Source: Centroberyx gerrardi (lineage: Eukaryota > Chordata > Actinopteri > Beryciformes > Berycidae). Taken from it: 64,000 bases of DNA. Position 1 is the stretch's first letter. Every line of letters begins with the position of its first letter. A program made the translations under genes and the position numbers. Location of the stretch: positions 19,953,176 through 20,017,175 of the forward strand of contig NC_136016.1 in NCBI RefSeq assembly GCF_048128805.1, read 5' to 3'. The notes beneath the pieces were generated by a model, which worked only from the letters and a program-made list of their open reading frames with translations, did no database searches and had not been told where the DNA came from. This document shows, one piece after another, positions 47,401 to 50,400 of this stretch.

Positions 47401-50400
47401 ATATCTGTTCATTTAGCAGGTCGGTTCTGTCTAAACAGGAAATGAGCTCTCCAGAGCCTCCATGTTGTTTGATTGGGCCAATAATGGAGGGTTTGCCTCT
47501 TCTTCTGTCTGCTGATTGGCCACAAAGTCTGATGGTGTTATGTGAATCTGTTCATAAGGGAATCAGTTCTTCCTCGCCCCATGACCAAGCTTTCCACAAA
47601 GTTTTGTGTAAATCCAACTTTTTGAGAAATGCTGCTAACAGACAAACAAACAGACAGACAGACAGACGGAACGGGGCGAAAACAAAACCCTCATCCAACT
47701 CCATTGGCGGAGGTAAATATATACAGATGTACAGAATATTGCACTGAGTTCTGAGAGAGAGTTTTGAACAGTGCAAAGGGAAAAAAAAGAAAGAGGTGGA
47801 ATGATATAAATAGGTATAAATATAAAAGTATACAGCCAGTAAAGAGTTGTGTACAATATACTGCATAAGAATATTGACTATATGATGGTAGGTGCTGGAT
47901 ACTTAAGTCAGTTCAGTTTTTGACAGCTTGGTGCGTTATCCTGAAGAAAATTGGGTCACACTCGACAAAAATAGTCTTTAATCGAGAGTCACTTTATTCC
48001 CTTTGCAGACAAAACATTTTTGGCTCCTGGCCTTCATCAGTGTCTGTGGATGATGGGTTCACCTCCCTCTGTAATAGGGAAGGTCCCAGGTTATCACATT
48101 GGAGGGAATCCTCTAATAGACGTGATGCAAGTTCATTTATTCAACATTCATTCCCAGTACTATATACAAATTTACACCATGGGAACATGGTGAAAAGTAT
48201 AAAAATATACACTGGAAAATTACATGTCACAGAAGGCTGAAAATTCTTTGTCTGCAGTGGGAATAAAGCAGAGGTGGGGACTCGAGTCACATGACTTGGA
48301 CTCGAGTCACAGTTTTAATTGCTTGAGACTTGACTTGATGCATGAAGACTTGAGACTTGACTTGACTTGACTTGGGTTCTGGTGACTTGGGACTTGACTC
48401 TGACTTGTACTTTGATGACTTGAAAAGGTTTCTAAAGTCTTGACTTGAGATCTTGTGTTTGTGTAAATCACTTAGATCACAAGTTATGAGATTTGTTCCA
48501 GCAGACGACTGAATTTAAATTCTGTTTTCTGAATTTGTATGGAATGATTGAATTTATTGAAGTTGAAACTGATTATAGAAATCAAACTCATGATGCTCTT
48601 ACCAAGTTTTTATCCTATTAAAATTGAAAAGTCCTAGATATTTAGTTTTCTTTAAGATATTAAATTGATACTGGACTCTTGATTTGTTCTGACTTGACTT
48701 GCTGTTCTACATTTAGACTTGAGACTTGACATTAATGACATGGACTTGACTTGGTAATCTACATTTAGATTTGGGACTTGACTTGACTTGTGCCTCAAGA
48801 CTTGAAACTGACTTGGGACTTGAGCAAAGTTGACTTACAGAAGTAAATGATCCTTATAACGGTTAACCCACTCTCCCTCCACCCTCCACCTCTCCCTCCA
48901 CCTCCTCCTCTCCCTCCATCCTCCACCCTCCTCCTCTCCCTCCACCCTCCTCCTCTCCCCCTGCAGCCATCCTGATCGCCCACCTGAAGCTGTCTCCAGG
49001 AGAGCTGCGTCAGGTCCTGATGAACATGACCACGGAGCGTCTGGAGCCCGCTCACATCAAGCAGCTGCTGCTGTACGCTCCGGACGACGAGGAGGTCAAA
49101 CAGTACGAGCAGTTCGACCAGGACCCCGCCAAGCTCAGCGAGCCCGACCAGTTCATCTTCCAGGTAACACACACACTGCCCAGTCTGACCAGTTCATCTT
49201 CCAGGTAACACACACACTGCCCAGACTGACCAGTTCATCTTCCAGGTAACACACACACTGCCCAGACTGACCAGTTCATCTTCCAGGTAACACACACACT
49301 GCCCAGACTGACCAGTTCATCTTCCAGGTAACACACACACTGCCCAGACTGACCAGTTCATCTTCCAGGTAACACACACACACTGCTCAGACTGACCAGT
49401 TCATCTTCCAGGTAACACACACACTGCCCAGACTGACCAGTTCATCTTCCAGGTAACACACACACTGCCCAGACTGACCAGTTCATCTTCCAGGTAACAC
49501 ACACACTGCCCAGACTGACCAGTTCATCTTCCAGGTAACACACACACACTGCACAGACTGACCAGTTCATCTTCCAGGTAACACACACACTGCACAGACT
49601 GACCAGTTCATCTTCCAGGTAACACACACACTGCACAGACTGACCAGTTCATCTTCCAGGTAACACACACTGCCCAGTCTGACCAGTTCATCTTCCAGGT
49701 AACACACACACTGCCCAGACTGACCAGTTCACCTTCCAGGTCACACACACACTGCACAATCTGACCAGTTCATCTTCCAGGTCACACACACACACTGCCC
49801 AGACTGACCAGTTCATCTTAGCGACACACCTGGTTTGGTTTGCTTTATTTTCACATGCATACAAATTTGAAAAAAGTCAAGAAAAGACATCAGAGGATTA
49901 GGGCCACGTGAAAAATGTATTTGAGTTCATAGAGTTCATAAAGTCAGAATTCTGAGATTAAAGATTCTGACTTTATTCTTACAATTCTTACTTTAATCTC
50001 AGAATTCTGACTTTAAAAATCTACAAGGGCTTATATAAAGATTGCTGTAATATTGTAACAGTGACTGCTAGTAACATCTGTAAGTAACAACTGTAAGTAA
50101 CTCACAATTGCTTAGAATCTATTTTATTGCTTATCGATTTATTGTTTTTAGCATTTTTTGTGTTTTATTGCTTCTATTTTTGTCTTTATCTTCTATTTTC
50201 CCTGCTGAATCCTATTACTTTTGCTGCTGCAACGAGCTAATTTCCCCACAGGGAATCAGTAAAGTCTCCTGTTATCTCATGAAACAGAACAAAGATGAGA
50301 TGATTTTCATACTTTCTGTCAGATGCTGATGGTGCCGGAGTACAAGACGCGCCTGCGGAGCCTCCACTTCAAGACGACGCTGCAGGAGCGGACGGAGGAG

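Follow-up and report, generated by a model that had tools for sequence, protein, structure and literature searches.

What becomes of a splice donor that has been copied many times over at the end of its own exon, and which of the copies can still lead to an open reading frame? The question is raised by a stretch of 64,000 nucleotides from Centroberyx gerrardi (the window), in which a minisatellite crosses the end of an FH2-domain exon and runs on into the following intron (Table 1). We confirm the array, and its effects on the coding frame match those first described in a sequence-only reading of this DNA.

The array, its unit and its host gene

The tandem array was recovered by TRF with a period of 41, 16.3 copies, 95% matches and 2% indels, and its head-to-tail units of 41 bp are of minisatellite size (roughly 10-100 bp). 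With the unit boundaries set at GACCAGTTCA, the first ten bases of the unit, the array was split into 17 copies. The last is truncated and lacks a donor; of the 16 full units, twelve measure 41 bp, three 43 bp and one 39 bp. The typical unit reads GACCAGTTCATCTTCCAG/GTAACACACACACTGCCCAGACT, where the slash separates 18 bp of exon from 23 bp of intron. In unit 1, the first 18 bases are the last six codons of the exon and the remainder is intronic, and the array extends 656 bp into the intron from the exon's donor. The 26-mer CTGACCAGTTCATCTTCCAGGTAACA, searched with up to three mismatches, was found 16 times, always within the array, compared with a mean of 0.00 in 100 shuffles. The sequence-only reading had described a minisatellite that multiplies a donor about sixteen times at an exon end, with a 41-bp unit made of the last 18 bp of the exon plus its donor; TRF and the unit split together bear out the former statement and the unit split the latter. 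A pyrimidine-rich tandem repeat with periods of 19 and 26 was also observed at 48871-48962, immediately before the acceptor of the same exon, which is therefore flanked by repeats on both sides. Another tandem array of approximately 300 bp (34250-34549; periods 9, 30 and 51) is not near any identified exon.

The array-bearing exon joins the next exon in frame and in phase 0, and the joined peptide aligns with the FH2 domain of DAAM1 (E 2.3e-11), gapless across the junction. In Pfam, the stretch starting at the next exon scored 34.2 bits for FH2, just below the cut-off of 34.8, while a later exon scored above it at 37.8 bits; two PDZ matches were found upstream, and no domain was found by Pfam in the 65-residue array-bearing exon alone. 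Two of the named protein matches to the exon are 'delphilin-like' (P0068 and P0079), from a bird and a lizard, and one is from Cirrhinus, a carp relative. Given the FH2 alignment, the PDZ matches and the 'delphilin-like' named matches, assignment of the gene to the delphilin (grid2ip) type is well supported. Upstream of it, HAD-type hydrolase exons and a DHHC palmitoyltransferase exon were noted on the - strand (437-2197 and 4692-5015).

Table 1. Features of the array and its host exons, in window positions; slashes mark the exon-intron boundary
Feature	Position	Strand	Basis
Minisatellite with a 41-bp unit: 16 complete copies, 17th truncated	49146..49819	+	TRF, unit split, unit alignment
17th copy: 14 bp matching, then degenerate sequence, no donor	49806..49839	+	unit split, unit alignment
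FH2-domain exon, delphilin (grid2ip) type; last 18 bp form the first part of unit 1	48967..49163	+	DAAM1 alignment, in-frame model, exon end in relatives
Next exon, FH2 continuing in phase 0	50323..50478	+	DAAM1 alignment, Pfam, in-frame model
Donor 1, CAG/GTAACA, sole donor keeping the frame open	49161..49169	+	unit split, donor-by-donor frame check
Donors 2-14, each CAG/GTAACA	49202..49704	+	unit split; predicted U1 pairing -8.0 kcal/mol each
Donors 2-8, exon-side base	49204, 49245, 49286, 49327, 49368, 49411, 49452	+	
Donors 9-14, exon-side base	49493, 49534, 49577, 49618, 49659, 49698	+	
Donors 15 and 16, weakened to CAG/GTCACA	49737..49786 (49739, 49780)	+	-5.6 kcal/mol
Acceptor-like sites (predicted), copies 2-16: CTGAC, then TTCATCTTCCAG (unit 15: TTCACCTTCCAG)	49185..49780	+	prediction with provisional weight tables

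Donor strength and coding outcome

Sixteen CAG/GT sites are present in the array, of which 14 read CAGGTAACA and the last two CAGGTCACA, in agreement with the sixteen copies, fourteen of them GTAACA, that had been noted in the sequence-only reading. Across both strands of the window, CAGGTAACA occurs 15 times, 14 of them in the array, whereas shuffled sequences (n = 100) contained it 0.54 times on average and three times at most. Donors 1-14 are predicted to pair with U1 at -8.0 kcal/mol, and by this measure donor 1 is the strongest among the model's seven exon ends. With a provisional weight table, donor 1 scores 7.54, second of the seven (top 7.6). This score is equalled or exceeded at six of 533 further GT sites in the interval 44000-54000, a set that includes the true donors. 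One donor of the model, at 52416, has a poor score and may have been placed incorrectly. The description of the array as a "ladder of equal donors" thus holds for donors 1-14, which are equal in sequence and in predicted U1 pairing, but not for its far end, where donors 15 and 16 are weaker and copy 17 has no donor. Because thirteen of the later donors match donor 1 both in predicted U1 pairing and in the provisional weight table, a preference for donor 1 would not be explained by any local donor feature. A special RNA structure at 49100-49350 was considered and rejected (z 0.24, with 119 of 200 shuffles folding as well).

The donors differ in what they do to the reading frame. Donor 1 leaves the frame open throughout the gene model. 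Donor 2 adds 41 nt and leads to a TGA directly after the join, and donors 3-16 add 82-617 nt, all of which include the TAA formed at the donor-2 site, so that a premature stop follows from all 15 later donors. The frame shift at donor 2 and the in-frame TAA at the donors further down, both anticipated by the sequence-only reading, were therefore found as described. Between these stops and the end of the last modelled exon there are 650-1229 nt, and beyond the exon that comes after the array the model has four junctions; nonsense-mediated decay of mRNA spliced at a later donor would be expected from this arrangement. The suggestion that the array might tolerate donor mutations did not survive the frame check, and the notion of redundant alternative donors was rejected on the same ground, as none of the 15 keeps the frame open. 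Donor 1 appears to have no substitute, since the later donors lead to stops and any internal excision would itself need donor 1.

Relatives, origin and competing readings

A search with the exon and its read-through gave 149 protein matches, of which the 120 listed were examined. The exon end is recognizable in 119 of these 120 related reading frames, and the residue after it is V in 117 of the 119, matching a GT intron start; of the remaining two, one has A and the other, a spliced protein, runs straight into the next exon. The V in these 117 listed relatives indicates that the exon ends at the donor 1 position there too. No second copy of the unit was seen in any of the 119 listed related reading frames, which are visible only to the first stop and do not count as independent; an array of this kind may also interrupt short-read contigs. 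In 18 of the 119, the frame continues into an apparent next exon and implies an intron of 74-130 nt, although in eight of these 18 the intron assignment rests on two end residues only and is weaker. The corresponding intron in the window is 1159 nt long, with 656 nt of it array. Taken at face value, the orthologous intron spans only 74-83 nt in several listed relatives (e.g. P0016, P0067, P0074 and P0075). From these comparisons, the array looks lineage-specific and young.

The units themselves differ little: over the 34 sites compared in the unit alignment, the 16 full units show 1.3 substitutions on average; unit 15, near the far end, is a divergence outlier, and copy 17 is degenerate. Such low divergence would fit a young array that grew by slippage or unequal exchange. 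The repeat is most likely accidental, and our main reading, to which we assign a probability of about 0.6, is that of a young, lineage-specific and near-neutral minisatellite in which donor 1 is the productive donor. We infer that a tandem duplication crossed the exon-intron boundary and founded the array, which would then have expanded by one of the two processes named above. Donor 1, as the only productive donor, is probably used for most of the mature mRNA, and the choice of a later donor would lead through a premature stop to removal of the transcript by nonsense-mediated decay. Some of the later-donor transcripts may be repaired by excision of the surplus units, because these are themselves a GT...AG interval. 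In studies of competing donors, the donor nearest the acceptor is often preferred; such a preference would predict many stop-bearing transcripts here, which argues against the reading with donor 1 as the productive donor.

A different outcome of the same ladder, already raised by the sequence-only reading, would be lowered expression, with the equal donors drawing U1 from donor 1, a stop in a large share of the transcripts and an amount of full-length FH2 protein that falls with copy number. The fourteen equal donors and the stop that follows from each of the 15 later ones are consistent with this. However, donors 4 onward would make an exon of 320-814 nt (197 + 123-617). Typical vertebrate internal exons are shorter than that, and exon recognition may therefore favor the early donors. 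Nor do the donor columns show extra conservation: with the CA run omitted, 2 of 24 exon and donor columns are variable compared with 3 of 10 columns in the tail (p = 0.14), and selection to keep the donors, looked for in these unit columns, left no sign. The CA runs that follow each donor are of a type bound by hnRNP L (PMC3823766) and could add regulation. On balance, we regard an expression-lowering role as unlikely. It is highly improbable that the array is an assembly artefact or has been assembled with a wrong copy number. The array is known from one assembly, and no protein match among those listed reads on into it, both of which would fit an artefact; against it, the units bear distinct variants in order (the 43- and 39-bp units and the substitutions in the tail), unlike a mechanical copy, and a single long read readily covers 674 bp.

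The remaining alternative turns on a feature of the later copies that was overlooked in the first reading of the sequence and is the point of interest in an otherwise likely accidental repeat. Where one unit meets the next, CT/GAC creates CTGAC, which makes a good branch-site motif and precedes all 15 later CAGs, while the exon's own copy carries the weaker CCGAC. In copies 2-16, the distance from the branch-like A to the end of CAG is 16 nt, which is inside the 10-60 nt range used in lariat mapping (PMC10156609). Together with the tract in TTCATCTTCCAG/G, CTGAC resembles an acceptor. If such acceptors work, copies 2-16 would act as acceptor and donor at once: whichever of donors 3-16 is used, the surplus of 82-617 nt runs GT...AG from donor 1 to the CAG of the copy concerned, and splicing it out as a small intron would restore the normal mRNA. 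Scored with provisional tables, the tract of the later copies reaches 3.44 (2.84 in unit 15), which exceeds one of the six acceptors of the gene (range 0.67 to 8.51) but is surpassed by the other five. Among 616 other AG sites, this tract score is attained by 28, and the tract and branch values together by 20. The exon's own end, taken as a control, has a score of 2.84 compared with -8.86 to 0.64 for the six other exon ends, which indicates that it already resembled an acceptor before the copying. The surplus is also not shorter than the introns implied in the relatives, and removal of sequence between two AGGT copies with no coding change has been described (PMC3443670). Against this, the weight tables are provisional and the cut-offs were fitted to the array itself, a second AG lies 4 nt after the branch-like A, and the 41 nt surplus of donor 2 is probably too short for an intron. 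The acceptor-like sites are candidates that give a lead and not a test, and a ladder that repairs its own surplus in this way seems to us quite doubtful. The same low confidence applies to its fullest form, in which the branch site made by the repeat junction before each copied CAG/GT would turn the array into a ladder of up to fifteen recursive splice sites, with any of donors 3-16 usable harmlessly.

Wider interest and known parallels

The locus offers a natural setting in which to test spliceosome choice among many locally identical donors, a question otherwise mostly approached with engineered constructs. The way in which introns lengthen by tandem duplication at AGGT may also be visible here, given the 1159 nt in the window versus 74-130 nt in the 18 listed related reading frames that allow an estimate. 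If the copies act as acceptor and donor, a repeat could grow at a coding boundary with no loss of function, and if the recursive ladder is true, the length of the minisatellite would be buffered by splicing and the locus would be a natural snapshot of intron birth and growth.

Tandem arrays as a source of introns were reportedly the subject of Zhuo et al. 2007, which may be a close parallel. In the review PMC3443670, a duplicated AGGT is described as yielding both a donor and an acceptor, with no change to the coding sequence when the two are used, and one vertebrate intron of this origin is mentioned as verified in vivo. The likeness to our array lies in the duplicated AGGT segment that gives donor and acceptor and leaves coding unchanged on removal; here, in contrast, the duplication sits on an existing intron boundary, approximately 16 copies are present, the old intron was lengthened, and the acceptors are predicted only. 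A tandem duplication across an exon-intron boundary that carries splice signals is also described for the potato RdRp gene (PMC4974935), where the acceptor-side boundary was involved and the new intron was detected, whereas our case is donor-side and has many copies, with any new intron putative. Minisatellites at exon-intron boundaries that are able to change splicing are reported for human paralogs (PMC2812944); these are variable, with a mean unit of 30 bp and about 4 copies, compared with 16 copies of a 41-bp unit here, each with a full donor, in a single gene. In Cryptococcus CNN00420 (PMC2395259), a repeat with splice sites inside the unit has likewise expanded, and the number of intron-bearing repeats is said to differ between strains; that repeat holds a whole intron plus exon ends, about 107 nt, whereas ours joins an 18-bp exon end to 23 bp of intron. 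Because of these cases, the kind of change is already known, and as far as our searches show, what is new is the copy number and the double donor-acceptor unit; a multi-copy donor ladder was not found in the parts covered of the literature on boundary and fish minisatellites, tandem genomic duplication, duplicated donors, surplus U1, hnRNP L and CA repeats, recursive splicing and intron gain from tandem arrays.

Recursive splice sites as described in PMC10156609 share with the later copies an AG/GT, a branch-like motif upstream and a donor downstream, but those sites rest on lariat reads, whereas the sites here are predicted only and stand in tandem. On the + strand outside the array, 242 AGGT sites were scored, and two of them clear the donor cut-off as well as the acceptor cut-off; since both thresholds were taken from the array itself, copies 2-14 pass by construction. 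One of the two is near 14814. At the other, at approximately 8200-8232 on the + strand, a strong acceptor-like tract ends in CAG and is directly followed by GTAACACA; a real exon may start at this site, or else it is a candidate for recursive splicing.
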